Numbered from the stretch's first letter, positions 11,284-50,072 are shown. The stretch: DNA of 56,524 nt from a virus (IMGVR_UViG_3300005613_002794:1-56524); one strand, 5' to 3'. Numbers and translations are program-made. The notes: generated by a model from the letters alone, not told the origin.

Positions 11284-12264
11284 ATGGATAATGCAGTATT
11301 AAACAGACTTAAGAACGCAGGACTACTCTCGGAACAGACTCCTGATATGGGATTTGTTTCGACGGGTAGCTTTGCTCTTAACAAGGTTATTTCTGGTGAC
11401 TACACCAAAGGCATCCCCATTGGAATGATTACTCAGTTCCATGGTGAAGCTTCGACTGCGAAGACAGTTTTCGCCACGCACATTCTTAAAGAGGCGCAAA
11501 AAAAAGGTTTTTACACCATGCTTGTTGACTCAGAGAATGCGTACAATTCTGAATTTGCAACTAGCTTGGGTCTTGACCCAAAAAAGCTTATTTATGCAGC
11601 ACCCGAAACGCTTGAAGATTGTTTTCAGGTTATTGAAGACACAATCTTAGCTATTCGAGAAACCGATAAAGAAACACCCATTGTTGTGGCTTATGATTCG
11701 ATTGCTGTTTCACCTTCCAAAGCGGAATATGAAGCAGAAAACTACGAAGGCAACAACATGCAAGGTGCAGTAAGAGCTAAATCAACTGGAGCTTGTTTGA
11801 GAAAGATAAATCCACTCATGCGAAAGCATCGGGTTGCTTTAGTAGTTGTCAACCAAATTAGAAACAAGGTCGGAATCGTTTACGGCAGCAACGAGACTGC
11901 CGCAGCAGGAGGTAAGGCTTTAGATTACTATCTAGGTGTCAATATAAAGACTATCTCGAATAAAACTAGCGATCTTTTGAAAGACGATAACAAACGGGTA
12001 ATGGGTATTCAAGGAAGACTACGCAACACAAAGAATAAGGTTTCCATACCTTTCCGAGAGACCACCTTCAAACTAATGTTTGATGAAGGTCTAGATCCTT
12101 TTGACGGGGTTTTGGATTATCTAATGGAGGATGGTCTTGTTACTCGATCTGGGGCATGGTATACCATAGTCTCCAATAATGAGAAGTTTCAAAGAAAAGA
12201 GCTAGAAAATATTCAGACTGACCCAAAATTTGAAGAAATACGCAACCTTCTTGGGTTGGGGTGA
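11284..12264 (+). CDS. RecA/UvsX-like recombinase
   Basis: 326 residues. The ATPase core is clear: FHGEASTAKTVFATHIL stands at the Walker A (with Ala where the usual Gly of GKT sits), FYTMLVDSENAYN follows, IVVAYDSIAV is Walker B, VALVVVNQIRNKVG is the L1-adjacent strand and ETAAAGGKALDYYLGV fits loop 2. It should coat single-stranded DNA and drive strand exchange for phage recombination-dependent replication, together with the UvsW-like helicase at 48.7-50 kb. The altered Walker A is odd but UvsX-type proteins vary here. The stop overlaps the frame of the following HNH gene. Confidence 0.85.
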   Translation: MDNAVLNRLKNAGLLSEQTPDMGFVSTGSFALNKVISGDYTKGIPIGMITQFHGEASTAKTVFATHILKEAQKKGFYTMLVDSENAYNSEFATSLGLDPKKLIYAAPETLEDCFQVIEDTILAIRETDKETPIVVAYDSIAVSPSKAEYEAENYEGNNMQGAVRAKSTGACLRKINPLMRKHRVALVVVNQIRNKVGIVYGSNETAAAGGKALDYYLGVNIKTISNKTSDLLKDDNKRVMGIQGRLRNTKNKVSIPFRETTFKLMFDEGLDPFDGVLDYLMEDGLVTRSGAWYTIVSNNEKFQRKELENIQTDPKFEEIRNLLGLG

Positions 12265-23515: not shown

Positions 23516-23788
23516 ATGAGCTACAAACAAAGCAAAGATCTTCAGAGTATTTGTCGATACGTTGAGTACGTTCGTGATACGCTTAATCGTAAATCTAACT
23601 CCCTAAACTCTTCGTGGTGTAAACTTCAGCCAATGGCTACTGAAGAACGCTGGGGTTATGATTCTGTCAAAGAGACTGATCTGGATCCTGTTTTCCAGGA
23701 GCTTTTTGATTCCATGGATGAACTCGCTAATGTGTTTACTGTTCTTGAATCTAAGATTACTGATTATATTAATCATCAATATCGCTGA
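23516..23788 (+). CDS. Small helical protein from a leaderless promoter
   Basis: 90 residues (MSYKQSKDLQSICRYV start), helical throughout with an acidic middle (DSVKETDLDPVFQELFDSM). The ATG falls where transcription should begin, so the message should be leaderless. No family recognised. It heads a short run with the lipoprotein and coiled-coil genes. Confidence 0.6.
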   Translation: MSYKQSKDLQSICRYVEYVRDTLNRKSNSLNSSWCKLQPMATEERWGYDSVKETDLDPVFQELFDSMDELANVFTVLESKITDYINHQYR

Positions 23789-25750: not shown

Positions 25751-25960
25751 ATGAAAGCACGACAAATCGTACAACAGTTGGACCACTTCAACGATGTCAC
25801 TCTGGAGATCCTGGAGCTTATTGACATCTGGCGTACTGCCAAGCACCCTGAGCTAATTGAGGCCGTCAAGGAGGCTCACGAAAAGCTCGACAGAATGCGG
25901 CAAGAGAGCTGTGACCTGGCTGACACAATCGACTACCAAATTAGTGAAACCTTGATGTAG
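25751..25960 (+). CDS. Small helical protein from a leaderless promoter
   Basis: 69 residues (MKARQIVQQLDHFNDVTLEI start), two amphipathic helices and an acidic end. The ATG lies at the expected transcription start. It differs in sequence from the gene after the other copy of this promoter (23516-23788). No family recognised. Confidence 0.6.
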   Translation: MKARQIVQQLDHFNDVTLEILELIDIWRTAKHPELIEAVKEAHEKLDRMRQESCDLADTIDYQISETLM

Positions 25961-26602: not shown

Positions 26603-26680
26603 ATGAATGACAAGCAGACAACCGATTTTGATCATGGTGTTCAGGTAGGGCGTTTACACCCTTTTGATAAATTATCGTAG
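26603..26680 (+). pseudogene. N-terminal stub of a gene interrupted by an HNH insertion
   Basis: From the leaderless promoter, ATG 26603 reads MNDKQTTDFDHGVQVGRL and stops at 26680, after entering the antisense end of the HNH gene (its stop is at 26641-26643). A consensus promoter for a 25-residue peptide is unlikely, so an original gene start was probably cut by the endonuclease gene. The rest may be the sigma-like gene after the insertion, or lost. Confidence 0.5.
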
Positions 26681-30100: not shown

Positions 30101-30557
30101 AAGAGGTAGAAAAGAATAGAGAAAAAGGTACAAAAAAGGGTAGTACCAAAAAGTCAAAGTAGAGGCACCCCATATACCCACCCCCCTGAAAAGTAAACCA
30201 AAAAGTCAAAGTATTGAGTTTGAGTATACAAAATACTATACAGGGGACCAAAAAGTCAAATTAGGGGTTCTGAAAATAAGTTGTTTGCTTGACCCAAACT
30301 AAATTCCCACTTTCTCCCACATCCCCCCACTAAACTAAATTCTGTTTTTCTCCCACCCCACCGAACTAAATTTAGAACTAATTCGGTCCACACCGAATAA
30401 AAGTAAACCAAAAAGTCAAACCTGGAAATTGAAATAAATGCATTTTAAAGCACTTTAGTAGGAGCTAGACTCAAATAGTCTAATTTTAAAACCACCTATC
30501 ACAACAAATTAGGATATGGTTTAAAAAACTCCTAAGGAATAAATCCAACTAGATAAG
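30101..30557. other. Non-coding stretch with iteron-like 14-mers
   Basis: No gene is visible between the convergent genes ending at 30100 (+) and 30642 (-). It holds four exact copies of ACCAAAAAGTCAAA at 30145, 30197, 30247 and 30407, a repeated AACTAAATTC element (about 30299 and 30335), a stem ATTCGGT/ACCGAAT (30381-30398) and AT-rich blocks. Directly repeated 14-mers plus AT-rich DNA are the appearance of an origin or regulator-binding region. Confidence 0.55.
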
Positions 30558-30595
30558 AAAAACCCTCTAGGCTATTTAAAGTCTAGAGGGTTTTT
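30558..30595. terminator. Bidirectional terminator
   Basis: 13-bp stem AAAAACCCTCTAG (30558-30570) with CTAGAGGGTTTTT (30583-30595), with A- and T-runs on both sides so it can stop transcription from either direction. Confidence 0.85.
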
Positions 30596-30641
30596 CTATT
30601 TAGTCTGAATTAAATTCAGCGAAGCATATCAGGACTTACTT

Positions 30642-30836
30642 TTACTGAAAAGCTTCCCAATCTTCTTCGTTATCGTAATCGTCGAACATATCGTCAAGCG
30701 CTTGACGATAATAGTCTGCGGTACTAATGCTCTGGAAAGTAGCATTCTCTCGCGTTGCAGTGTAGTAAACCGCTTCCCGATAAGAATCCACAACAAGGGT
30801 AGATCCATCCTCAAACCGAACCTCGAACTTTTTCAT
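30642..30836 (-). CDS. Small acidic protein, leaderless array gene
   Basis: 64 residues from ATG 30836 (MKKFEVRFEDGSTLVVDSYR). The longer reading starting at 30854 would translate through the TATAAT box and is rejected. Beta-rich start and a very acidic end (DDMFDDYDNEEDWEAF). No family recognised. Own promoter at 30843-30871. Confidence 0.65.
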   Translation of the reverse strand: MKKFEVRFEDGSTLVVDSYREAVYYTATRENATFQSISTADYYRQALDDMFDDYDNEEDWEAFQ

Positions 30837-30842
30837 GCCCCT

Positions 30843-30871
30843 ATTATACCTCACGTGGCCTAGAATTGCAA
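30843..30871 (-). promoter_or_regulatory. Leaderless sigma-70 promoter
   Basis: TTGCAA, 17-base spacer, TATAAT (30848-30843), six bases to the ATG at 30836. Confidence 0.75.
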
Positions 30872-30930
30872 GAGAAACCCGTGGGAATTTTTTGGTTCCC
30901 GTCGTAAGTGGTTGTAAATAAAGGACTTAT

Positions 30931-30984
30931 GGCGCGCCGCCGCCCGCAGGCCGATCCTAAACCCTTGGGGGATAAGCACTTAGG
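30931..30984 (-). repeat. Hairpin-rich intergenic element, copy 1 (inverted)
   Basis: Inverted relative to copies 2-7: CCTAAGTGCTTATCCCCCAA then GGTTTAGG and a GC-rich GGGCGGC tail. It lies between a gene end and the next promoter, as do the other copies. Confidence 0.7.
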
Positions 30985-30993
30985 ACCTCGCCC

Positions 30994-31215
30994 CTAGGGC
31001 CTAGAATCCTTGTAAAAAGGCGTCAGGGAGTTAGTGTAAGCTCGGACGGGGGAACATTCTTCGTCGCAATCGTTACACCAGTAAAAATCGTTGGCATAAT
31101 TGTTTTCGATACCTTCCTCCCAACCGTTATCTTCGTTCATTTCCAGGAGAACAGAAAACTCCTGGAGAACGTTATCGCTACCGCATTGGCTACAAGTCCA
31201 GCTATCTTTTTTCAT
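30994..31215 (-). CDS. Small zinc-ribbon protein
   Basis: 73 residues. CSQCGSDN near residue 8 and CNDCDEEC near residue 47 form a four-cysteine zinc ribbon; the middle is acidic. The ATG overlaps the stop of the GP88-like gene (TGATG), so the two are one transcript from the 31884-31911 promoter. No specific family. Confidence 0.65.
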   Translation of the reverse strand: MKKDSWTCSQCGSDNVLQEFSVLLEMNEDNGWEEGIENNYANDFYWCNDCDEECSPVRAYTNSLTPFYKDSRP

Positions 31216-31877
31216 CAGTGAGAAAGGAATCGAACGGTTTTTTTAGCAGTCCAGCACAATCCACAATCGGCGCAGGACTTTGCTTTAGCAGTCTGTTCGG
31301 GACAATCGAAAGAAGAACCCTCGAAAGATTCTTCCGCAGCATAAAGCCAACCCGTAATGGTATCGGCTTCGAAGTTGCCAGAATGGCGAATAACACAACG
31401 CTCGGAAAAGCGGTTATTCAGGAGCCAGATAGCCTTGCCGATCTTAGTTTGATCCTGGCGAGCAGTATATCCGAAGATCGCAAGTTTAGGATATTCCAGC
31501 AACATCTCTTGCCAGAACTCGACATAATCGGTGGAGTAGAAGTCTCCGAGAACATGCAAACGAATAAGGATTCCGTCCTTATGTTTCGCCATTAGTTTGG
31601 CGATATCGTCGCGCAGCTTATCCTCTAAACCGTTCACGTTGTAACGGTGTGCGAAGGGCATATTGTTACCATAACAGTCTGCCCAATGGTGACAGCTAGT
31701 GGGGCAAGTTTCCCGTTCAGTAAGGGTAAGGGAGAAGATACGCTTTCCCTTGTGCCGACCTTTCGAGACTTTCCAACCGAGCTTCTTGTTGTTCGAGCCA
31801 GGCTTGAGAACGTGGAGAGTGTCCCAGACAGACTTGATGGACTTGAGGTAGCGCGTGGTCAGGAGAGTGTTAGTCAT
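31215..31877 (-). CDS. GP88-like protein
   Basis: 220 residues. GKRIFSLTLTERETCPTSCHHWADCYG, split as SLTLTERETCP and CHHWADCYG, and the later LIRLHVLGDFYSTDYVEFWQ match the GP88-type phage family, which has a conserved CP...C...CY block after a phenylalanine/leucine-rich strand. A second Cys cluster (CPEQTAKAKSCADCGLCW) at the end could bind a metal or Fe-S cluster, suggesting a radical-SAM-like or other metalloenzyme. Function is unproven. Leaderless promoter upstream. Confidence 0.65.
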   Translation of the reverse strand: MTNTLLTTRYLKSIKSVWDTLHVLKPGSNNKKLGWKVSKGRHKGKRIFSLTLTERETCPTSCHHWADCYGNNMPFAHRYNVNGLEDKLRDDIAKLMAKHKDGILIRLHVLGDFYSTDYVEFWQEMLLEYPKLAIFGYTARQDQTKIGKAIWLLNNRFSERCVIRHSGNFEADTITGWLYAAEESFEGSSFDCPEQTAKAKSCADCGLCWTAKKTVRFLSH

Positions 31878-31883
31878 GCGTGT

Positions 31884-31911
31884 ATTATACCCGACTTTGG
31901 GCCAATGTCAA
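31884..31911 (-). promoter_or_regulatory. Leaderless sigma-70 promoter
   Basis: TTGACA (31911-31906), 16-base spacer, TATAAT (31889-31884), ACACGC, ATG at 31877. Both hexamers are perfect. Confidence 0.85.
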
Positions 31912-31936
31912 GCCTGGGAAGAAGTTTTTTTTCGAT

Positions 31937-32002
31937 CCTAAGTCCTTATCCCCCAAGGGTTTACGACCGCTTCGCGGGCGGCCGCGCCTGCCAATATGGC
32001 AG
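31937..32002 (+). repeat. Hairpin-rich intergenic element, copy 2
   Basis: CCTAAGTCCTTATCCCCCAA, then GACCGCTTCGCGGGCGGC, then the palindrome-like CTGCCAATATGGCAG. The three parts can each fold into a hairpin. Confidence 0.75.
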
Positions 32003-32015
32003 TCAAGGAAAAAAA

Positions 32016-32098
32016 TGGTGGAGGCGCAGGGAATCGAACCCTGGTCTTAACTAGTTCCCGTGTAGGGTCTTAGCTAGTCGAACAACCATATCGCCCCC
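32016..32098 (-). ncRNA. tmRNA-like RNA without a tag reading frame
   Basis: On the minus strand GGGGGCG (32098-32092) pairs with CGCCUCC, followed by A and an encoded CCA (32018-32016). CAGGG-UUCGAUU-CCCUG is a T-arm. After the acceptor comes AUAUGGUUGUUCGAC, which matches the D-loop-like start of bacterial tmRNA (GGxxUUCGAC). There is no D-stem and no anticodon arm; instead ACUAG/CUAGU with an inner CCC/GGG forms one hairpin where tmRNA helix P2 starts. The whole RNA is 83 bases, with no space for pseudoknots or a tag ORF. Confidence 0.6.
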
Positions 32099-32105
32099 GA
32101 AGGGT

Positions 32106-32166
32106 GGCGGAGGGTAGCCCTTCTGCTGTGGCCCACTTACCTCCAGCATGAGACAGACCCTCCGCC
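32106..32166. repeat. Inverted repeat next to the tmRNA-like gene
   Basis: GGCGGAGGGT near 32106 and ACCCTCCGCC near 32157 form a 10-bp perfect stem with a loop of about 40 bases. It is immediately 5' of the tmRNA-like RNA on the minus strand and could be part of its precursor or end the gene upstream. Confidence 0.55.
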
Positions 32167-32172
32167 GATCAT

Positions 32173-32406
32173 TCACCGACCGCGACGGCCAAGGCCACCC
32201 TGGGTGGCGAGGTGAGCAGCAGAGGCACCGAGGCGCCGATCCCCGTCCATCGGGAGGAGACGCCGCAGAGATTTGTAAGCCTCAAGGCACTCCATCGCGT
32301 TGATGTTTGAGTTGGGATCATCGTAGAGGTCAGCGAAAAGCTCTCCAACTTGGACGGAGAGACCTTGAATCTTAGCCAACAGGGCGTCCTTGTTGAAATC
32401 TTTCAT
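32173..32406 (-). CDS. Small helical protein, leaderless array gene
   Basis: 77 residues from ATG 32406 (MKDFNKDALLAKIQGLSVQV); longer readings cross the promoter. Helical first half, Arg/Gly-rich end (GGLGRRGR). No family recognised. Confidence 0.6.
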   Translation of the reverse strand: MKDFNKDALLAKIQGLSVQVGELFADLYDDPNSNINAMECLEAYKSLRRLLPMDGDRRLGASAAHLATQGGLGRRGR

Positions 32407-32412
32407 GGGTGT

Positions 32413-32441
32413 ATTATACCGCAGGGAAGGGAGTTTGTCAA
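32413..32441 (-). promoter_or_regulatory. Leaderless sigma-70 promoter
   Basis: TTGACA (32441-32436), 17-base spacer, TATAAT (32418-32413), ACACCC, ATG at 32406: a full consensus. Confidence 0.87.
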
Positions 32442-32459
32442 GGGGAAAAGGGAAGAAAC

Positions 32460-32603
32460 CTAGTAGGCGTCGTCGCACCAATCGTCGCAATCGGGATCAT
32501 CTTGCCAATCCTCACAGCCTTCCTCCTCGATGGCATAGAAGCCTTCCTCGATCATGCGGTAGAAGCTGTCGGCTTGCTCGTAGTAATCGTTTTCGTTTTC
32601 CAT
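32460..32603 (-). CDS. Very acidic small protein, leaderless array gene
   Basis: 47 residues (MENENDYYEQADSFYRMIEE start), with 19 Asp/Glu and three Cys in the second half (CEDWQDDPDCDDWC). Such charge suggests a DNA-mimic or an inhibitor of a nucleic-acid-binding host protein; this is inference only. Confidence 0.6.
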   Translation of the reverse strand: MENENDYYEQADSFYRMIEEGFYAIEEEGCEDWQDDPDCDDWCDDAY

Positions 32604-32609
32604 GCGTGT

Positions 32610-32638
32610 ATTATACCAGAAGAAGGCTCGTTTGTCAA
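32610..32638 (-). promoter_or_regulatory. Leaderless sigma-70 promoter
   Basis: TTGACA (32638-32633), 17-base spacer, TATAAT (32615-32610), ACACGC, ATG at 32603. Confidence 0.87.
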
Positions 32639-32644
32639 GGGGAA

Positions 32645-32860
32645 TCAGAGAGAAAACGGAAGTTCGCAACCCTCGCGCTGCCAACGACTTGCAATGGCGC
32701 TCATGTGGTAGCTGGCAAGGGAATCGGGCATATCGAGCCCGTGGACGCGGTAGTCCGCACAGGCATCACGGTAGGGCATCCACAACAGCCCAAACCCATC
32801 GGCTTCAATGGCATCGAGGAGGCGAGAGAGCTTGCTGGGCAGGTGAGTCGTTTTCTTCAT
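32645..32860 (-). CDS. Small protein, leaderless array gene
   Basis: 71 residues from ATG 32860 (MKKTTHLPSKLSRLLDAIEA), alpha-helical with Trp/Tyr residues in the middle (GFGLLWMPYRDAC). No family recognised. Confidence 0.6.
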   Translation of the reverse strand: MKKTTHLPSKLSRLLDAIEADGFGLLWMPYRDACADYRVHGLDMPDSLASYHMSAIASRWQREGCELPFSL

Positions 32861-32866
32861 GTGTGT

Positions 32867-32895
32867 ATTATACCACACTCTTGGGGGATTGCAGG
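32867..32895 (-). promoter_or_regulatory. Leaderless promoter with weak -35
   Basis: TATAAT (32872-32867) six bases before ATG 32860; the -35 is only CTGCAA/CCTGCA-like. Confidence 0.65.
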
Positions 32896-32919
32896 CGTGT
32901 GGTGCGAAAAACTTTCTGC

Positions 32920-33002
32920 CCTAAGTCCTTGTCCCCCAAGGGTTTAGGACCGCTTCGCGGGCGGCGCGGATGCCCTAACCCTAGTATTGACAAGGGTTTA
33001 GG
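32920..33002 (+). repeat. Hairpin-rich intergenic element, copy 3
   Basis: CCTAAGTCCTTGTCCCCCAA core, GACCGCTTCGCGGGCGGC hairpin, and a tail CCTAACCCTAGTATTGACAA plus GGGTTTAGG shared only with copy 4. Confidence 0.8.
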
Positions 33003-33010
33003 TTCACCCA

Positions 33011-33053
33011 CTAAAAAATAGCACTCAACCGCTAAAAACTAGCGGTTGAGTGC
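33011..33053 (-). terminator. Rho-independent terminator (minus strand)
   Basis: A perfect 14-bp stem (33053-33040 with 33034-33021, loop of five) is followed on the minus strand by TATTTTTTAG. It ends transcription coming from the gene at 33283-33516. Confidence 0.85.
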
Positions 33054-33282
33054 ATCCGAGACGCCCCTTGCAAAGAGCTTCTCGGCCTGCCTCGGCCCTA
33101 GCCGCCTCAGCCAGTTTAATAAATCACGCACCGCTCTAGACTATCGCGCGCGACCCGATAGTGTTGCGGTGTGGAGGAGCTACCTCCGCGTGTCCCCCAA
33201 AGGGTGGGGCTTTCGCCTCGCTACCCTTCGGGACGCTCTGGGCCTAGTCACCTATTTAGCCTCGCCCAGTCGAGGATGGGAT
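33054..33282 (-). other. GC-rich non-coding stretch with several hairpins
   Basis: No credible frame. On the minus strand it can form CCC-GAA-GGG, GGC-GAAA-GCC (a GNRA tetraloop), a CCCTTTGGGGG hairpin, GGAG/CTCC and CTATCG/CGATAG stems, and it ends in the terminator at 33021-33053. It may be a structured RNA in the 3' region of the 33283-33516 transcript. Confidence 0.4.
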
Positions 33283-33516
33283 TCACGCCCCCATGTAGCG
33301 GTGGTTCAATCCGCTCTTGGTCACGAACTGGCGGGAGTTGGCATAGTGCCGATTCCACGCGTGCTTGCAAGCGTTCAGCGTTCCCGTGTAGGTGTTTCGC
33401 TGTTCTTGTAGGTCGAAGATGGTGTAGACCGCATTTGCGGCGTTGCCCTTACCGACTCGAATCATGACCGCATTCTGGTTCGAACGCACGATGTTAGTGA
33501 TGATGAAGTTGATCAT
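33283..33516 (-). CDS. Small basic protein with a normal leader
   Basis: 77 residues (MINFIITNIVRSNQNAVMIR start), mostly beta-strand, basic. Unlike its neighbours it has an AGGAG Shine-Dalgarno and a leader of about 40 bases from a consensus promoter, and a strong terminator follows. No family recognised. Confidence 0.65.
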   Translation of the reverse strand: MINFIITNIVRSNQNAVMIRVGKGNAANAVYTIFDLQEQRNTYTGTLNACKHAWNRHYANSRQFVTKSGLNHRYMGA

Positions 33517-33561
33517 TGTTTGATTTCTCCTATTGGAAATAAGGTTGGTGAACGAGCCCCC

Positions 33562-33590
33562 ATTATACCATGGGGACCGTGTGCTGTCAA
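33562..33590 (-). promoter_or_regulatory. Consensus promoter with a normal 5' leader
   Basis: TTGACA (33590-33585), 17-base spacer, TATAAT (33567-33562). The ATG is 45 bases further and has AGGAG before it, making this the exception in the array. The -35 overlaps the end of the next gene. Confidence 0.85.
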
Positions 33591-33961
33591 GCGTTGGCTT
33601 CGAAGTTCTTGACGATGTTGGCGATCTTGGCCTGGATGCGAGCGTCGATATCGCTCAGACGCTGCTCACCGCTGGAGAGGGTTTCCTCTGCCTCACTGAC
33701 TTCCATGTTGATCTTGTCGATCCAACGCTCATGCTTGGCGATGCGAGCCTGTCCCGACTGGGGACCGTTGCCAAGCACCTTCTTGGCCTCGCGGATCTGC
33801 TTCTGGATGATGGCCTTGTTCTCCAGCATGGTGGCAACGTCGGGGTTGCTGCTGGCGTCCTTCTTGGCTTGCTTGATGCGAAGACGCTCAAGCTTGGCCT
33901 CGGTTTCCGCGATGATCTCGGCAGGGGTGCGCTGGCCGCGCTTAGTGATGTTGTCTTTCAT
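33587..33961 (-). CDS. Coiled-coil protein, leaderless array gene
   Basis: 124 residues, almost entirely a charged helix: AETEAKLERLRIKQAKKDAS, IIQKQIREAKKVLG, EAEETLSSGEQRLSDIDARI. Start ATG 33961 at a leaderless promoter. Probably dimeric. No family recognised. Confidence 0.7.
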   Translation of the reverse strand: MKDNITKRGQRTPAEIIAETEAKLERLRIKQAKKDASSNPDVATMLENKAIIQKQIREAKKVLGNGPQSGQARIAKHERWIDKINMEVSEAEETLSSGEQRLSDIDARIQAKIANIVKNFEANA

Positions 33962-33967
33962 GGTCGT

Positions 33968-33996
33968 ATTATACCTCAGGTTAGGGGTTCAGTCAA
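33968..33996 (-). promoter_or_regulatory. Leaderless sigma-70 promoter
   Basis: TTGACT (33996-33991), 17-base spacer, TATAAT (33973-33968), six bases to ATG 33961. Confidence 0.82.
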
Positions 33997-34015
33997 CAAG
34001 AATCTGGAGAAAGTT

Positions 34016-34177
34016 TCAGATGTTGAGACCTTTGGAGCGAGCTTCCTCACGCCATGCGAGGTAGTCTTGGACCTCTTCGACAGTGTAACCATCTTCCCAG
34101 AACTCTTGGATCACCTCCGTATCCAGGTAGCCCAGGGTGGTGAAGAAGGCCTCTTGGTTCATATCGGTGTAGCTCAT
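34016..34177 (-). CDS. Small acidic protein, leaderless array gene
   Basis: 53 residues from ATG 34177 (MSYTDMNQEAFFTTLGYLDT), ending near 34016. Helical, acidic and aromatic-rich, with EFWEDGYTVEEVQDYLAWRE. It is under 60 residues but has a full leaderless promoter. No family recognised. Confidence 0.6.
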   Translation of the reverse strand: MSYTDMNQEAFFTTLGYLDTEVIQEFWEDGYTVEEVQDYLAWREEARSKGLNI

Positions 34178-34183
34178 GCGCGT

Positions 34184-34211
34184 ATTATATCACGGATCGA
34201 GGCCATTGCAA
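34184..34211 (-). promoter_or_regulatory. Leaderless sigma-70 promoter
   Basis: TTGCAA (34211-34206), 16-base spacer, TATAAT (34189-34184), six bases to ATG 34177. Confidence 0.78.
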
Positions 34212-34236
34212 GCCTGGGAAGAAGTTTTCTTTCGAT

Positions 34237-34319
34237 CCTAAGTCTTTATCCCCCAAGGGTTTAGGACCGCTTCGCGGGCGGCGCGGATGCCCTAACCCTA
34301 GTATTGACAAGGGTTTAGG
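34237..34319 (+). repeat. Hairpin-rich intergenic element, copy 4
   Basis: Nearly identical to copy 3 over about 83 bases. The preceding GCCTGGGAAGAAGTTTTCTT (34211-34230) is also nearly the same as the flank of copy 2, so the repeat unit extends further there. Confidence 0.8.
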
Positions 34320-34395
34320 ACCGTTTTCGGCAGTTTGCGTGCACACGAAATTTTGCGTGCGCACGGAATCTACCCGACTGCCGTTGAGCATGGGC

Positions 34396-34470
34396 CTACA
34401 TGTAGAGCCAAGCTATGCACGCACCGAAGAACAACACGTTGCACAGCACGCGGTAAGCACGACTCTTCAA
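34396..34470 (-). CDS. Possible 24-residue membrane peptide
   Basis: A TTG overlapping the stop of the previous gene (TTGA) reads 24 codons to TAG. RVLCNVLFFGACIAWLYM is a membrane-helix-like stretch with two Arg and a Lys before it. Start codon and size make it uncertain. Confidence 0.3.
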   Translation of the reverse strand: MKSRAYRVLCNVLFFGACIAWLYM

Positions 34471-34730
34471 TAGATCAGTCCGCCGCTGCTGTTCAACCTC
34501 GCGACGTATTCTTCACGCAAGGCGTTGTGCTTGCGCGTGAGCACGGGGATCTCCTCAGCAGGGACGAAGGCCCCCCAGAGCGTGTTGACACCGTTGTCCA
34601 GGATCTCAAGATGCACGAGTTCGTTGGATTGAGGACGAACGGCGAACCAGATGTCTTGGATGAGGATGTTGGTAGGGATGTCGTGGATGGATGACATGAT
34701 CAGCATTTGGCTAGGTTGTTGTGTTTCCAT
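34467..34730 (-). CDS. Small protein, leaderless array gene
   Basis: 87 residues from ATG 34730 (METQQPSQMLIMSSIHDIPT), beta-rich with a helical C-terminal part. The promoter and the first four codons are shared with the zinc-finger gene at 36886-37089. No family recognised. Confidence 0.62.
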   Translation of the reverse strand: METQQPSQMLIMSSIHDIPTNILIQDIWFAVRPQSNELVHLEILDNGVNTLWGAFVPAEEIPVLTRKHNALREEYVARLNSSGGLIY

Positions 34731-34737
34731 GTTGCTC

Positions 34738-34766
34738 ATTATACCACAAGGGACAGGGGTTGTCAA
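34738..34766 (-). promoter_or_regulatory. Leaderless promoter, GAGCAAC type
   Basis: TTGACA (34766-34761), 17-base spacer, TATAAT (34743-34738), GAGCAAC, ATG at 34730. The seven-base gap GAGCAAC recurs before genes at 37089 and 37460. Confidence 0.85.
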
Positions 34767-34769
34767 GGA

Positions 34770-34976
34770 CTAATCCGTGCAAACTTCAACGTACCAGCCG
34801 TCCAGCGCGGGCCAGGAATCGCGGATGCCAAGCCAAGCGCCGATTTCCTTGCGGACGAACTCGTACATCTCCTTTTTGGTGGAACCCTCTGGAACTACGA
34901 CAAAGTAGGTATCGTAGTAACGGCCAGATTGGATCTTTTCGAACGAAGAGACGTTCAGCTCTTTGCTTTCTTTCAT
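34770..34976 (-). CDS. Small protein, paralogue of 36565-36747
   Basis: 68 residues. From residue 11 it matches the protein at 36565-36747 (FEKIQSGRYYDTYxVV, GWYVEVCTD). Its first nine codons (MKESKELNV) and promoter are instead identical to those of the beta-solenoid gene at 35320-35919. It is thus a chimera of a promoter/N-terminus unit and a separate body. No function known. Confidence 0.65.
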   Translation of the reverse strand: MKESKELNVSSFEKIQSGRYYDTYFVVVPEGSTKKEMYEFVRKEIGAWLGIRDSWPALDGWYVEVCTD

Positions 34977-34982
34977 GGGTAC

Positions 34983-35010
34983 ATTATACCACATCCTGGG
35001 CAAATGTCAA
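34983..35010 (-). promoter_or_regulatory. Leaderless sigma-70 promoter
   Basis: TTGACA (35010-35005), 16-base spacer, TATAAT (34988-34983), six bases (GTACCC) to ATG 34976. Confidence 0.85.
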
Positions 35011-35035
35011 GGGGTCAGGTGGATCTTTTTGTCGT

Positions 35036-35100
35036 CCTAAGTCCTTGTCCCCCAAGGGGTTAGGACCGCTTCGCGGGCGGCTGGCCTGCCATTATGGCAG
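35036..35100 (+). repeat. Hairpin-rich intergenic element, copy 5
   Basis: CCTAAGTCCTTGTCCCCCAA, GGTTAGG, the GACCGCTTCGCGGGCGGC hairpin and CTGCCATTATGGCAG. Its last part holds the stop codon of the gene at 35092-35247. Confidence 0.8.
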
Positions 35101-35247
35101 ATTGTGTGCTTGGTCCTCGATAGCTTCAATGAGGGCACGGTAGTCCATAGGACCGAGGGGAGTAGTTCCTGGGGCTGTGCTCTCAGCGACCCACTGGCCG
35201 ACTTCGATGCAACGGATTTCCCAGAAATTCATATTGCTATCGTACAT
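35092..35247 (-). CDS. Small acidic protein, array gene
   Basis: 51 residues from ATG 35247 (MYDSNMNFWEIRCIEVGQWV), acidic and rich in Ala/Glu at the end. The promoter is weaker, with TATAAC at 35260-35255 seven bases upstream and no clear -35. The stop lies in repeat copy 5. No family recognised. Confidence 0.5.
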   Translation of the reverse strand: MYDSNMNFWEIRCIEVGQWVAESTAPGTTPLGPMDYRALIEAIEDQAHNLP

Positions 35248-35319
35248 GCTTTGTGTTATACCACGGGGGTAGCAGTATGCTGATCGGTGTCAAGAAGAGC
35301 GTTCAAGCCTTTTTATTTG

Positions 35320-35919
35320 TTAGTTGCCAGAAACCCAAGCTTTACCAAAAACTAGAGCATTATCACAAACCCGAGCTTTACCAAAAACTAGAGCATTACC
35401 ATGAACCGAAGCATTATCAAAAACTAGAGCTTCACCGTAAACCCTAACTTCATCATAGGCCCAAGCTTTACCAAAAACCTGAGCTTTACCATAAACCCGA
35501 GCTTTACCATAAACCCGAGCATTACCATAAACCCGAGCTTCATCATAAACCCGAGCTTCATCATAAACCCTAGCTTCATCATAAACCCTAGCTTCACCAA
35601 AAACCTGAGCTTTACCGTAAACCCGAGCATTACCAAAAACCCTAGCTTTACCATAAATCCAAGTTTCACCAAAAACCTGAGCTTTACCGTAAACCGAAGC
35701 ATTACCCCAAACCCGAGCATTACCAAAAACCTGAGCTTTACCGTAAACCCGAGCATAACCAAGAACTAAAGCTTCCCCGAAAACCCTAGCATTGGGACCA
35801 ATATAAGCAGTAGGTTCTACGATAGCTGTATCAGCTACCCAACCACCAATTGATCCATCAGGATTAATATGACGCTTCGCAGCCAGAAGGGGAACGTTCA
35901 GCTCTTTGCTTTCTTTCAT
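35320..35919 (-). CDS. YdcK-like beta-solenoid protein 3
   Basis: 199 residues from ATG 35919. MKESKELNV is followed by HINPDGSIGGWVADTAIVEP (the header shared with the two plus-strand copies), then about 25 hexapeptide repeats of type NARVYGKAQVFG. Five near-identical units around 35530-35600 (EARVYD) show recent expansion. It is expressed from a leaderless promoter, unlike the two plus-strand paralogues. Confidence 0.75.
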   Translation of the reverse strand: MKESKELNVPLLAAKRHINPDGSIGGWVADTAIVEPTAYIGPNARVFGEALVLGYARVYGKAQVFGNARVWGNASVYGKAQVFGETWIYGKARVFGNARVYGKAQVFGEARVYDEARVYDEARVYDEARVYGNARVYGKARVYGKAQVFGKAWAYDEVRVYGEALVFDNASVHGNALVFGKARVCDNALVFGKAWVSGN

Positions 35920-35925
35920 GGGTGT

Positions 35926-35953
35926 ATTATACCACACTTCGGGGCGATTACAA
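35926..35953 (-). promoter_or_regulatory. Leaderless sigma-70 promoter
   Basis: TTGTAA (35953-35948), 16-base spacer, TATAAT (35931-35926), ACACCC, ATG at 35919. Confidence 0.78.
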
Positions 35954-35978
35954 GTCTGGAGGTGGATCTTTTTGCACT

Positions 35979-36044
35979 CCTAACCTGTTATGCCCCAAGG
36001 GGTTACGACCGCTTCGCGGGCGGCCCCGCCTGCCATAATGGCAG
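35979..36044 (+). repeat. Hairpin-rich intergenic element, copy 6
   Basis: CCTAACCTGTTATGCCCCAA variant of the core, GACCGCTTCGCGGGCGGC and CTGCCATAATGGCAG. Confidence 0.78.
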
Positions 36045-36066
36045 TCAAGGAAAAAAGATGATAGAT

Positions 36067-36090
36067 ATTCGCTATTCGCGAATAGCGAAT
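36067..36090. repeat. Perfect 24-bp palindrome
   Basis: Two 12-base arms (ATTCGCTATTCG and its complement) meet without a spacer. It lies between repeat copy 6 and the end of the gene at 36128-36310. It could be an operator for a dimeric repressor or a cruciform/hairpin site. Confidence 0.8.
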
Positions 36091-36127
36091 GGGGCAAGCC
36101 GTCAGGCTCCACAGGTGCGGCGGCTAA

Positions 36128-36310
36128 CTAAATCAGGTTCTTAAGGTTTTGCTTTTGGATGCGGCGAAACTTACGGCGTTCTTTCGCGTTGGACTTTCTC
36201 GGATGAGTCCCCCACCCGTTGCAGCACACACAACTTTTTCCGCCATACCCGTGATAGCTACGACGAATCAGTTTTTCTTCTTTTGCGTTGTTTGCAATCT
36301 CGATGTTCAT
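36128..36310 (-). CDS. Small basic Cys-containing protein
   Basis: 60 residues (MNIEIANNAKEEKLIRRSYH start). GGKSCVCCNGWGTHPRKSNA holds a CxCC cluster and the end is Arg/Lys-rich. It starts 21 bases after the gene at 36332-36526 and probably shares its transcript; no strong Shine-Dalgarno. Nucleic-acid binding is possible. No family recognised. Confidence 0.5.
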   Translation of the reverse strand: MNIEIANNAKEEKLIRRSYHGYGGKSCVCCNGWGTHPRKSNAKERRKFRRIQKQNLKNLI

Positions 36311-36331
36311 ACTAGTATTTAGGGAACTTTA

Positions 36332-36526
36332 TTATCGAAGAAGATCAGGGGAAACGGGTTGATTTTGAATCAAAGCAAAAGCCACTTCACGAATTTGCAT
36401 TCTCAATTCCTCCGTAGGGGAAAAAGAATCCTCGTCGTCAACCACAACAAAGCGCTTTTCTCGGTCGATGATATCCAAAAGAGTGTTTGCGATGTCGATT
36501 CGACGGCGATCTTCGGAAGTTTCCAT
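36332..36526 (-). CDS. Small acidic helical protein, leaderless array gene
   Basis: 64 residues from ATG 36526 (METSEDRRRIDIANTLLDII), helical with an acidic middle (VVDDEDSFSPTEE). Longer readings cross the promoter. No family recognised. Confidence 0.62.
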   Translation of the reverse strand: METSEDRRRIDIANTLLDIIDREKRFVVVDDEDSFSPTEELRMQIREVAFALIQNQPVSPDLLR

Positions 36527-36532
36527 GTGTGC

Positions 36533-36561
36533 ATTATACCTCAGTAAGTGGGGGTTGTCAA
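36533..36561 (-). promoter_or_regulatory. Leaderless sigma-70 promoter
   Basis: TTGACA (36561-36556), 17-base spacer, TATAAT (36538-36533), six bases to ATG 36526. Confidence 0.86.
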
Positions 36562-36564
36562 GGA

Positions 36565-36747
36565 CTAATCCGTGCAAACTTCAACGTACCAACCCTTGTC
36601 CTTGTAGGGCCAGGATTGGCGGATGCCGAGACCAGCGCCAATTTCCCTGCGGACGTACTCGTGGATCTCCTCTCGGGTGGAACCCTCAGGTGCCACGACA
36701 AGGTAGGTATCGTAGTAACGGCCAGATTGGATCTTTTCGAACTTCAT
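36565..36747 (-). CDS. Small protein, paralogue of 34770-34976
   Basis: 60 residues from ATG 36747 (MKFEKIQSGRYYDTYLVVAP). It keeps only the shared body, without the MKESKELNV head of its paralogue. Both end GWYVEVCTD. An alpha/beta fold with REEIHEYVRREIG helix. No family recognised. Confidence 0.65.
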   Translation of the reverse strand: MKFEKIQSGRYYDTYLVVAPEGSTREEIHEYVRREIGAGLGIRQSWPYKDKGWYVEVCTD

Positions 36748-36753
36748 GGGTAC

Positions 36754-36781
36754 ATTATACCACATCCTGGGCAAATGTCAA
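36754..36781 (-). promoter_or_regulatory. Leaderless sigma-70 promoter
   Basis: TTGACA (36781-36776), 16-base spacer, TATAAT (36759-36754), GTACCC, ATG at 36747. Almost identical to the promoter at 34983-35010. Confidence 0.86.
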
Positions 36782-36806
36782 GGGGTCAGGTGGATTTTTT
36801 TATCGT

Positions 36807-36872
36807 CCTAAGTCCTTGTCCCCCAAGGGGTTAGGACCGCTTCGCGGCCGCCCCCGCCTGCCATAATGGCAG
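36807..36872 (+). repeat. Hairpin-rich intergenic element, copy 7
   Basis: CCTAAGTCCTTGTCCCCCAA, GGTTAGG, GACCGCTTCGCGGCCGCC variant and CTGCCATAATGGCAG. Confidence 0.8.
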
Positions 36873-36885
36873 TCTGTGATGTGTT

Positions 36886-37089
36886 TCATTCGCAGGGAAT
36901 AACGTCGTCCCAGATGCCTTGGTCGATCAGGTCCTGAGCGGACACGATCTTATTCCAATAGTACTCGTCCGCCCACCGCTCCAAATCAGCCATGTACTCA
37001 GTGTCGCAGGAGGAGCAGAGCCCCATGTGCGAGCGAAGGAAGTGGATCGGGGCAAGCGCCCCACAGCTATCACAGGCTTGTGTTTCCAT
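36886..37089 (-). CDS. Small zinc-ribbon protein, leaderless array gene
   Basis: 67 residues from ATG 37089. CDSCGALAP at residue 6 and CSSCDTEY at residue 26 form a four-Cys zinc ribbon; the rest is an acidic helix. Shares its METQ start and promoter with the gene at 34467-34730. May bind nucleic acid or a host protein. Confidence 0.68.
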   Translation of the reverse strand: METQACDSCGALAPIHFLRSHMGLCSSCDTEYMADLERWADEYYWNKIVSAQDLIDQGIWDDVIPCE

Positions 37090-37096
37090 GTTGCTC

Positions 37097-37125
37097 ATTA
37101 TACCACAGGGAAGGGGGCTTGTCAA
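37097..37125 (-). promoter_or_regulatory. Leaderless promoter, GAGCAAC type
   Basis: TTGACA (37125-37120), 17-base spacer, TATAAT (37102-37097), GAGCAAC, ATG at 37089. Confidence 0.86.
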
Positions 37126-37238
37126 TAGGTTTTTTGGGTTTTCCTCAGAGGTTAGAGGTCATCTGCCTCTAAAGTGCCAAAAGTGGCCTATAACCGATGT
37201 GGCGTGTGGCCTTGACGCGGGGCCGCTCGGCCCCTGAA

Positions 37239-37460
37239 TTAGCGGTTGAGGAGGTCGAGCATTTGCTTCAAGCTCCACCGCTTGGTGCTGTAGTAGGAGG
37301 GCCACAAGGGGTCGCCTTGAGGGTAGTGGAATCGGTAGTGCGAGGAACCACTCGCCAGGTTGACGAGTTGGAGGACCTTACCCTCAGGCCCGAACCACTC
37401 CAGGATGTTCGGGTTGTCGGTGCGGGGAGTACCTTGGGGGAGAGTCTTGGTTGCTTTCAT
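37239..37460 (-). CDS. Small protein, leaderless array gene
   Basis: 73 residues from ATG 37460 (MKATKTLPQGTPRTDNPNIL), aromatic- and Pro-rich in the middle (HYRFHYPQGDPLWPSYY) with a short helix at the end. First gene of the array in transcription order. No family recognised. Confidence 0.6.
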   Translation of the reverse strand: MKATKTLPQGTPRTDNPNILEWFGPEGKVLQLVNLASGSSHYRFHYPQGDPLWPSYYSTKRWSLKQMLDLLNR

Positions 37461-37467
37461 GTTGCTC

Positions 37468-37495
37468 ATTATACCACACCCTCAGCGGAATGCAA
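37468..37495 (-). promoter_or_regulatory. Leaderless promoter, GAGCAAC type
   Basis: TTGCAT (37495-37490), 16-base spacer, TATAAT (37473-37468), GAGCAAC, ATG at 37460. Confidence 0.78.
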
Positions 37496-37523
37496 GAACT
37501 ATTTCGGAAAATATCGCGTGGAC

Positions 37524-48115: not shown

Positions 48116-48702
48116 CGTTGTACCTTTATTTTTTTGTCCCAACAGCTAATCATTAAGCTGATTCTTGAGGATCCTGATCGCATATGTCGGATAGGTAAAA
48201 CTCCATGAGCGTGGTTTCCCTCAAAGATTACTAGGCGGCTGGGTTTGTATTCAATCTTTAACCACTTGTTTGCTTTGGATCTTTCAGCTAGATTGTAGAT
48301 ATCTTCCTCAAAAAAGTAGCCTGGATGATATGGTTCGGGATCCATCACAAGCTCGCCGCCTTCGATCTCGTCTCCTCCAAGAAAGAGAACGGCTGTCTTT
48401 TTGGCAGGTTCAATACCTTCTACCTCTTCATCACAATCCACATGATGATGTAGATAGTTATTATTGTGGTCTAAGACGTTAACCCAAACCTCGTAACCCT
48501 TGCCTGTAAACCCTGGATCTACATTAGATAAAGACCTAATAATCTTACAGATATCAGATTCTGTCTTGTCCTTGTGTTTCTTACCCCAAACATACTTGTC
48601 GCTGAAGAAATCAAACTGCCAGGATCCAGCGTAATGAAAAAAGCTATAAAGGTCATCTAAAGTAGAATCTCCACCAAAAAAATCATCTTCTATCTTAATC
48701 AT
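48112..48702 (-). CDS. 2OG-Fe(II) oxygenase-like protein
   Basis: 196 residues. YLHHHVDCDEEV has an HxD-type iron-ligand pair, HAHGVLPIRH the distal His and SSRISLMISCW the Arg that holds 2-oxoglutarate; AVLFLGGDEIEGGELVM is the core strand pair. It is the third such oxygenase here. Substrate unknown. It overlaps both neighbours by four bases. Confidence 0.72.
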   Translation of the reverse strand: MIKIEDDFFGGDSTLDDLYSFFHYAGSWQFDFFSDKYVWGKKHKDKTESDICKIIRSLSNVDPGFTGKGYEVWVNVLDHNNNYLHHHVDCDEEVEGIEPAKKTAVLFLGGDEIEGGELVMDPEPYHPGYFFEEDIYNLAERSKANKWLKIEYKPSRLVIFEGNHAHGVLPIRHMRSGSSRISLMISCWDKKIKVQR

Positions 48703-50072
48703 AGAATTTTTACCGTATGGCCCTCTTTTTCGTAGTGTCGTCTGCGTGCTACAGAGTGATCAGATAGATATTTCTCTTTATCGAGAAAATCATAGATATA
48801 TACTACATCTTTGCTATCATGCCGTCTTAATGCTCGGCCAAGTGCTTGTAAAGTAGCAATTTCGGATTTCATACCTCTTGCATTTATGAAGTGGGTGATC
48901 TCCTCGATATTTACTCCTGTTTGCAGAATTTTTGTTCCAATAAGAACACTAGACTCTGAGCATCCTCTGAATCTAGATATACAGTCATACCGTTCTCCGA
49001 TGGAATTAGCCCCTTCCAAGAACTCAACGGATCCTCCAACCATTTCCTCCAAGGTCCTTCCGTGATCAAGTGATTTGGTAAGAATAAGGATACGGGCTTT
49101 TTTGTTTCTTCTTCTGATGTCATTTACAATTTCTTTTATTATTTTGTTTCTGGGTTCGTTGTTTACAATGTAATCATCATAAACGTCAAGGAACCCCATG
49201 TCCTCATCGACTCCACTAGCTTCGTAGGGTCTGTCAATGAGTTGTATGATTGGTTTTGTGAGTTTGCCTTCATCAACTAGATCGGCTGTTGCCACGGTCT
49301 GTAGGACGCTCCCTAGAGCGCCCTCTAGGTTGTATCGAGGGATCTTCTCACTTGGAGGCGTAGCGGTGAATCCGAAGCGGTACACGGCGTTAGGGAAGCT
49401 CCTGATGGCTGTCAGGGTGGTCTTCCCATTAGCGAACTCATGGCACTCGTCAACCATAAGCACTTCAGCTTCGGTCAAGTGTGTGTCTAAGATTCTTTCG
49501 ATGCTTTGTACAGTACATAACATAATATCACCACAAACAAAACCCTCACCAAAACAAAGCCCAATATTATCAAATCCACAAGCTTTAGTAAGGAAATCAT
49601 ATGTCTGCGTCAGTAGCTGTTTCGCATTGAACAAGATCACCATCTTTTTACCCTCTAGAGCTTTGATCAAACCAGCCATGATCAAAGTTTTTCCTGAGCC
49701 AGTTGGAGACTTGATAACACCTCTCATCTTATCTAGGCCCTGAGCGATAAGTTCTTTTTGGTAGTCGTAGTAAGTAAATCCTGGTATTGTGTAATCTACT
49801 TTTTGTATTTCAGAAACAGGAAGATGATCTAGAACTATCTCGGGATCACAATCAATCTTCTTTAAGTCCTCAAGTAACCTAGATAATAGGCCAGTCTTAA
49901 ATACGCCAGACTTAGAAATAAAGTAAGTTTTACCATCCCATTGTCTCCGCTTGTACGCAGGCGAGTACCTGGCACCAGGAACATTGAATGAGTAAAGCTC
50001 ATATAGTGCTTTTAGAAGCTCGGGATTGTCGGTTTCTATACGAGAATTTATTGTATCGACATAGATCTTCAT
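48699..50072 (-). CDS. UvsW-like SF2 helicase
   Basis: 457 residues from ATG 50072. N-terminal domain with YKRRQWDGKTYF, then YDYQKELIAQ (Q-like motif), SPTGSGKTLIMAGL (motif I), LMVDECHEF (motif II, DECH), GFTATPP (III), ILTKSLDHGRTLEE (IV) and QALGRALRRH (VI). This is the order of T4 UvsW and RadH-type helicases that rewind or branch-migrate recombination intermediates. TATAAT (50084-50079) sits six bases before the ATG. Confidence 0.86.
   Translation of the reverse strand: MKIYVDTINSRIETDNPELLKALYELYSFNVPGARYSPAYKRRQWDGKTYFISKSGVFKTGLLSRLLEDLKKIDCDPEIVLDHLPVSEIQKVDYTIPGFTYYDYQKELIAQGLDKMRGVIKSPTGSGKTLIMAGLIKALEGKKMVILFNAKQLLTQTYDFLTKACGFDNIGLCFGEGFVCGDIMLCTVQSIERILDTHLTEAEVLMVDECHEFANGKTTLTAIRSFPNAVYRFGFTATPPSEKIPRYNLEGALGSVLQTVATADLVDEGKLTKPIIQLIDRPYEASGVDEDMGFLDVYDDYIVNNEPRNKIIKEIVNDIRRRNKKARILILTKSLDHGRTLEEMVGGSVEFLEGANSIGERYDCISRFRGCSESSVLIGTKILQTGVNIEEITHFINARGMKSEIATLQALGRALRRHDSKDVVYIYDFLDKEKYLSDHSVARRRHYEKEGHTVKIL

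Follow-up and report, generated by a model that had tools for sequence, protein, structure and literature searches.

An array of small phage genes with sigma-70 promoters placed at the start codon, predicted to yield leaderless mRNAs

Results

An array of small genes with their promoters at the start codon

The subject of this work is an array of small genes on the minus strand of a viral sequence, IMGVR_UViG_3300005613_002794:1-56524, the whole 56,524 nucleotides of which are called the window below. Between positions 37496 and 30642 of this 56.5-kb record there are 16 promoter units in less than 7 kb, as had been counted in an original prediction made by a model from the sequence. In 15 of them, the -10 hexamer ends 6 or 7 bases ahead of an ATG that opens an open reading frame (ORF) of 47–220 codons. 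The 16th promoter (33590..33562) reads into a leader of some 45 nt that contains AGGAG, and then into the gene at 33283-33516, the only one in the array with a leader of this kind, in agreement with the prediction.

Counting from the upstream end, with all units on the minus strand, unit 1 (37239..37460, 73 residues) has TATAAT-N7-ATG and a poor -35 box (CTTGCA/TTGCAT), and unit 2 (36886..37089), whose 67-residue product carries CxxC motifs, has TTGACA-N17-TATAAT-N7-ATG with its promoter at 37125..37097. The latter arrangement also precedes unit 8 (34467..34730, 87 residues), and TTGACA-N17-TATAAT-N6-ATG is found at unit 4 (36332..36526, 64 residues), unit 12 (32460..32603, 47 residues) and the conserved unit 13 (32173..32406, 77 residues). 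The promoter is TTGACA-N16-TATAAT-N6-ATG at unit 3 (36565..36747, 60 residues), at its paralogue unit 7 (34770..34976, 68 residues, 78% identity) and at unit 14 (31215..31877), which encodes a 220-residue protein of the GP88 family (PF17338) and is followed by an overlapping ORF at 30994-31215. Other -35 boxes are seen at unit 5 (35320..35919, 199 residues with YdcK-type beta-solenoid repeats; TTGTAA-N16-TATAAT-N6-ATG), unit 9 (34016..34177, 53 residues; TTGCAA-N16-TATAAT-N6-ATG), unit 10 (33587..33961, a 124-residue all-helical coiled-coil protein; TTGACT-N17-TATAAT-N6-ATG), unit 11 (32645..32860, 71 residues; CTGCAA-N16-TATAAT-N6-ATG) and unit 15 (30642..30836, 64 residues; TTGCAA-N17-TATAAT-N6-ATG). 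The weakest promoter is that of unit 6 (35092..35247, 51 residues), which has TATAAC-N7-ATG and a TTGACA further upstream. A single strong intrinsic terminator lies within the array (33021..33053, minus strand), and a terminator with an 18-bp stem (30556..30597) marks its end, between convergent gene blocks.

This layout is far in excess of chance. TATAAT-N6/7-ATG followed by an ORF of at least 40 codons occurs 14 times in the array compared with 0 in 100 dinucleotide shuffles of it, and 17 times in the whole window compared with 0–1 in 40 shuffles. A histogram of TATAAT-to-ATG spacings from 0 to 30 in the window has 13 cases at N6, 4 at N7 and 0–3 at each other spacing. Perfect TTGACA-N17-TATAAT promoters number 6 in the array (expected 0.00), and 9 array promoters have both hexamers perfect with a spacer of N16-18. 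These are host sigma-70 consensus hexamers 16–18 bp apart, as in the sigma-70 early promoters of T4-type phages; the T4 late motif, TATAAATA, occurs in the window about as often as expected by chance. The array is on the strand opposite to terminase and portal. The proposal of small genes that each have a promoter placed at the ATG is thus confirmed for 15 units, and the remark that longer start choices would read through the TATAAT is correct for TTG and GTG starts. Other parts of the prediction held less completely. Most -35 boxes had been described as TTGACA or close to it, but about half of the array -35 boxes differ from TTGACA (TTGCAA, TTGTAA, CTTGCA, TTGACT), and the unit starting at 35247 combines TATAAC with a poor -35. 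Among the plus-strand copies proposed, two are units of the same type (23516..23788, 90 residues, TTGACA-N16-TATAAT-N7-ATG; 25751..25960, 69 residues, TTGACA-N16-TATAAT-N6-ATG) and the one at 26603 opens only 25 codons. Both sites thought to have a -10 only (given as 11273 and 50079) do lack a real -35, at 11284 and 50072, but the spacing at 11284 is N5.

The same arrays are present in related uncultured phages

The terminase encoded in the window is about 32% identical to those of cyanophages and of Flavobacterium and Microcystis phages, and further T4-type genes are present, namely a gp20-type portal, UvsX, primase, helicase and a T4 baseplate protein. Because of this gene content, we assign the window to the T4 superfamily, within a branch that is uncultured; no close cultured relative came out of our phage searches. 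Related loci were collected through terminase or GP88 homology, and the same arrays are present in them; four further loci retrieved by the promoter motif (L158, L159, L171 and L214) have the same terminase at 65–72% identity. The resulting comparative set holds 192 distinct units from 19 sources, which are related phages and hence not independent samples. A search for the fused motif gave at least 120 stretches in viral contigs, compared with 13 matches in a collection of bacterial and archaeal genomes that totals 257 Gb. These 13 matches lie in assorted metagenome-assembled genomes, and no host could be assigned from them.

The prediction had named as a refuting outcome that TATAAT-N6-ATG be no more frequent than chance in related genomes, and this outcome was not observed. 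In the terminase-related loci, TATAAT-Nk-ATG with an ORF was found 104 times at k=6 and 12 times at k=7, with 0–17 at most other spacings. There is a second, smaller peak of 53 cases at N22 in loci L044-L123. Cultured T4-type phages are without the signature: five of them have 3–6 sites per 156–192 kb, compared with 1–5 for a reversed-pattern control.

The array proteins fall into families common to several phages. In 200 non-independent pairs of homologues, 6613 of 9343 codons with a single change were synonymous, compared with 2217 expected, and homologues mostly align from the first ATG, with an offset of 0 by far the commonest. On this comparative evidence, the array ORFs are real coding genes that start at that ATG. 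Sequence searches of Pfam, PHROGs and PDB with the array proteins returned beta-solenoid, GP88 and weak coiled-coil matches only; for the coiled-coil and 77-residue proteins, AlphaFold models had no fold match in the PDB and no homologues were found in annotated phages. The 47-residue product of 32460-32603 has a net charge of -18 and is possibly a DNA or RNA mimic. As a separate observation, the unit 5 gene (35320-35919) contains 18-nt repeats, each of 6 residues, and resembles Curvibacter, Vibrio and other phage genes at the DNA level.

Transcripts are predicted to begin at the AUG

Sigma-70 polymerase starts 7–8 bases past the -10, which is where the A of the ATG falls in these units. Several features of the 192 units are those to be expected of a start site at this position. 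The base before the ATG is C in 90% of N6 and 85% of N7 units, the discriminator is mostly ACACRC with A at +1, and the TG of an extended -10 often precedes the -10 hexamer; a spacer motif, (G/T)CGATAA, is present in 5. Codon 2 is AAN in 74% of units compared with 24% of other window genes, T is depleted just downstream of the array starts, and the mean folding energy of the first 45 nt is -3.9 kcal/mol compared with -9.6 inside ORFs. Matches of the GAGG type overlap the -10 or are found upstream of it, and hence no usable Shine-Dalgarno (SD) sequence is left between the predicted transcript start and the ATG. In bacteria, leaderless genes are characterized by a TANNNT some 12 bp ahead of the start (PMC3160421), and a 5'-terminal AUG with downstream CA repeats favours leaderless translation (PMC9031893). 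Given the C at -1, the AAN second codon, the unstructured starts and the real, conserved proteins that follow, array mRNAs that begin at the AUG and are leaderless are strongly predicted. The leaderless interpretation offered originally is therefore well supported as a prediction, with the N6 spacing, the C at -1 and the unstructured starts recurring in the relatives.

The fused motif by itself is no proof of a leaderless gene, since in an unrelated phage group TTGACA..TATAAT-N6-ATG is followed by AAGGAG and a further ATG in 29 of 56 cases. Should this apply to the array, the true start would be the second, SD-preceded ATG and the first would merely lie in a short leader. Within the array lineage, L158 and L171 do have this pattern at their coiled-coil gene. 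Across the array units, however, an SD with a second ATG within 60 nt is found in only 3 of 192, compared with 7 of 174 inside the same ORFs, and the alignment of homologues from the first ATG also speaks against a downstream start, so that for the array lineage the second-ATG alternative is largely excluded and we give it hardly any credence. We regard as very improbable, if slightly less so, that the genes are read from long upstream transcripts by SD-free initiation on leadered mRNA (S1-mediated or mediated by A-rich sequence), with the close promoters being incidental. The scarcity of terminators between units makes read-through RNA probable, and a clear SD precedes only 31 of 63 of the phage's other genes. 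Yet a sharp N6 spacing, a C at -1, an A at +1 and perfect promoters, all kept in divergent phages, would make no sense on such an account, and the conserved second-cistron gene described below mostly retains its SD. As an observation on the unrelated contigs themselves (L186, L241, L202, L213, L203, L160 and L157), TTGACA-N17-TATAAT-N6-ATG is used there as the opening of a short leader, within which an SD and another ATG follow, so that a 5'-terminal AUG would precede an SD-led gene.

A phased inverted repeat upstream of the weaker promoters

Many units are preceded by a 29-bp inverted repeat, CSTAAGTSC-N11-GSACTTASG, referred to here as the operator. Sites matching at 13 or more of the 18 positions lie ahead of 77 of the 192 units, compared with 0–6 in shuffled upstream DNA. 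Of these matches, 39 end 46–48 bp and 23 end 56–59 bp before the -10, which puts the operator centre near -73 or -83, one helical turn apart. A weak -35 is found in 43 of 69 units with the operator and in 17 of 65 without it (p = 3e-5); an extended -10 is more frequent in operator-bearing units, and units without the operator tend towards a consensus -35. A separate operator-only scan of viral contigs yielded 21 sites in previously unused loci that precede a leaderless unit. L352, a repeat of L002 sequences, accounts for five of them, and of the other 16, some of them on near-identical contigs, 14 lie at 47–49 or 57–60 bp and 2 at 51.

In the window, 7 of the 15 units have an operator. It ends 47 bp before the -10 of unit 3 (36807..36835), unit 5 (35979..36007, a degenerate copy matching at 12/18), unit 7 (35036..35064), unit 9 (34237..34265), unit 11 (32920..32948) and unit 14 (31937..31965), and 54 bp before that of unit 15 (30903..30931, 16/18). 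An extra copy at 30956..30984 on the plus strand has no plus-strand promoter after it.

From the operator's position and its association with weaker -35 boxes, we infer that it is the site of a putative dimeric class-I activator. Class-I sites are inverted repeats near -62, -73 or -83 in helical register, and the operator conforms to this description, with some sites out of register. A repressor bound at the same repeat, for lysogeny-type or late-type control, is a less probable alternative that still deserves some weight: repressors often bind inverted repeats close to promoters, but with its centre near -73 or -83 the operator falls beyond the contacts of the core polymerase, and the company of weaker -35 boxes is what activation would lead one to expect. 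It is unlikely that the repeat is no DNA operator at all and instead works as RNA, forming a hairpin where the upstream transcript ends. Its location in 3' intergenic DNA beside GC-rich, hairpin-like sequence would suit such a role, but the arms pair about as often as expected from independent half-sites at all 12 positions, with no covariation, and the distances to the -10 are clustered.

An SD-led second cistron and Pistol ribozyme matches

The coiled-coil gene of unit 10 occurs in 14 array loci, and the 77-residue SD-led gene (33283..33516, minus strand) in 11 array phages; in nearly all array phages that have both, the latter is the second cistron behind the former. In some phages the SD-led gene is without its own promoter, so that its translation must depend on the upstream message, and in these it usually has an SD-like AAGGA. 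Neither a promoter of its own nor an SD is evident at the gene in L089. Rfam matches to the Pistol ribozyme above the cut-off were found in 10 array loci, namely the window and L001, L004, L005, L030, L076, L099, L158, L171 and L214, and reach 65.5 bits. The window copy (33223..33275, minus strand) is weak, with 38.5 bits against a cut-off of 34.5 and an imperfect P2 stem. In 8 loci the ribozyme lies 7–16 nt past the stop of the SD-led gene (about 8 nt in the window), and in L004 and L030 it is elsewhere. Pistol ribozymes (RF02679; PMC4604425) are already known to be associated with phages; what differs from the known examples is this fixed place past the stop of the SD-led gene.

A transfer-messenger RNA reduced to its tRNA-like domain

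Between units 13 and 14, at 32098..32016 on the minus strand, lies an 83-nt sequence that we call a mini-tmRNA. It has both acceptor strands, a D loop, a short helix, a T arm and an encoded CCA, and no message part. Its acceptor, T arm and GGUUUCGAC-type D loop are those of a transfer-messenger RNA (tmRNA), with the D loop varying somewhat between copies, and in its match to RF00023 about 300 of the 374 positions are absent. Versions of 80–85 nt occur in 10 phages (the window, L001, L002, L003, L004, L005, L076, L089, L099 and L115), usually just past the homologue of gene 32173-32406, and score 71–100 bits with a model of our own that was built from 8 of the 10. Changes on both sides of a pair are seen in 9 of 19 pairs (20 cells compared with 5.8 when shuffled), in an alignment that was fitted to the model. 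The G3:U70 pair, which marks alanine tRNAs, is unchanged in 10/10. A 41-bit match in a 111-kb relative turned out to be a tRNA, and matches were therefore trusted only above 70 bits. A permuted-tmRNA model gave a weaker, partial match. In L089 (1300-1560, minus strand), a long, structured-looking RNA directly follows the CCA and has no Rfam family above the cut-off.

We found no SmpB gene in 13 phage records, which may be fragments, so the mini-tmRNA would probably need SmpB from the host. Phage DS6A has a tmRNA without a coding sequence, and expressing this RNA in E. coli is reported to inhibit the cell's endogenous tmRNA (PMC11915505); by analogy with that report the mini-tmRNA may be a decoy against host ribosome rescue, a tentative reading whose chances we put slightly short of even. 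Alternatively, it may serve as an RNase P processing point. The tmRNAs lacking a coding sequence of DS6A and of jakobid mitochondria (PMC11915505, PMC3985003) are similar in having a tRNA-like domain with no tag frame and no pseudoknots; in contrast to them, the RNA described here covaries in ten related T4-type phages and lies inside an array of predicted leaderless genes. Among the papers searched, DS6A is the one phage case described.

Other features of the window

The helicase gene (48699..50072, minus strand) has TATAAT-N6-ATG without a -35. The string ahead of it, TATAATAGTGTG-ATG, has a similar counterpart in relatives L076 and L082 and is possibly a different promoter type. On the plus strand, the genes at 579-1850 and 2010-2705 are identical in their first codons and in the sequence just upstream, and appear to be a partial duplication.

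Discussion

The array most probably consists of self-contained cassettes in which a sigma-70 promoter is fused to the start codon and the gene is translated leaderless. Each cassette would comprise a TTGACA or weaker -35, 16–17 bp, a -10, a 6–7-base discriminator ending in C and the ATG. RNA polymerase would start at the A of the ATG to give an mRNA that begins with AUG, and its leaderless translation would be aided by an A-rich, U-poor and unstructured start. Many of the weaker -35 units would be driven by a dimeric activator at the 29-bp operator. With a single strong terminator inside the array, read-through RNA would hold downstream genes without a ribosome-binding site, and each gene would therefore need its own promoter.

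Several points weigh against this interpretation. The -35 boxes of some units (37460, 35247) are poor, transcript start and timing are read from sequence, and the usual sigma-70 spacing preference is assumed for the host. Transcription may start a few bases upstream of the AUG and leave a 5' leader of 1–3 nt, and copying of whole cassettes, as with the duplicates units 3 and 7, could be partly behind the conserved spacing. As for the operator, its role as an activator site is read from position and the -35 correlation only, and some spacings fall outside both clusters, including unit 15 (54 bp) and those at 50–52 bp.

The cassettes share with bacterial leaderless genes (Zheng et al. 2011, PMC3160421) a -10 ending 6–7 bases before the ATG, the lack of an SD and a frequent extended TG. 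Those genes are scattered among ordinary ones, whereas the phage block of 7 kb consists almost wholly of genes of this type, which have a fixed discriminator and an operator in common. Messages with a 5'-terminal AUG are likewise familiar from phages. Thermus phages have leaderless mRNAs. That of lambda cI is leaderless (cited in PMC9031893 and PMC3160421), and phage transcripts have been described as "often leaderless" (PMC5312081). The known cases are single repressor genes or whole temporal classes, in contrast to an array of autonomous small sigma-70 cassettes. A repeated start-linked element before many genes is also seen in the SAS/ESAS system of Cluster K mycobacteriophages (PMC3203893), about half of whose sites have an upstream inverted repeat that its authors find little support for as an RNA hairpin. 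SAS (GGGATAGGAGCCC) has an SD-like stretch within it, and a role in translation has been proposed for it; the array starts lack an SD, and no such 13-bp SD-containing start sequence is found at them. Unlike that of SAS/ESAS, the array inverted repeat keeps a helical spacing to a sigma-70 promoter. What is new, then, is a phage regulon for which predicted leaderless starts are the standard, each joined to a sigma-70 promoter and many to a phased operator as well, beside a conserved tag-less tmRNA.

An early role in host takeover is plausible, given the consensus host-type promoters, the small and variable proteins and the strand opposite to terminase and portal. The arrangement would probably serve to express small proteins directed at the host as soon as infection begins, each of them tunable on its own, and the alanine-type tmRNA decoy alongside may block host ribosome rescue. 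More speculatively, the array could be one arm of a takeover of translation, in which altered host initiation or rescue would let leaderless messages beat SD-led host messages early. The agents would be the tag-less alanyl tmRNA, the SD-led 77-residue protein and the coiled-coil protein, with the activator at the 29-bp operator setting the cassette order. We consider this broader scheme unlikely to be correct.

Bacterial leaderless translation has usually been studied on few genes, and in these phages it appears to be the rule for a whole regulon. With promoter, start codon and regulator site fused, a cassette would be movable without its neighbours. The array lineage offers dozens of natural, predicted strong leaderless starts (ACACRC-AUG-AAA) from which to learn what makes them efficient, and the defined operator is a handle for finding the regulator. 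With a tag-less tmRNA present in the array, the idea that phages attack ribosome rescue in the same early programme also becomes open to test.

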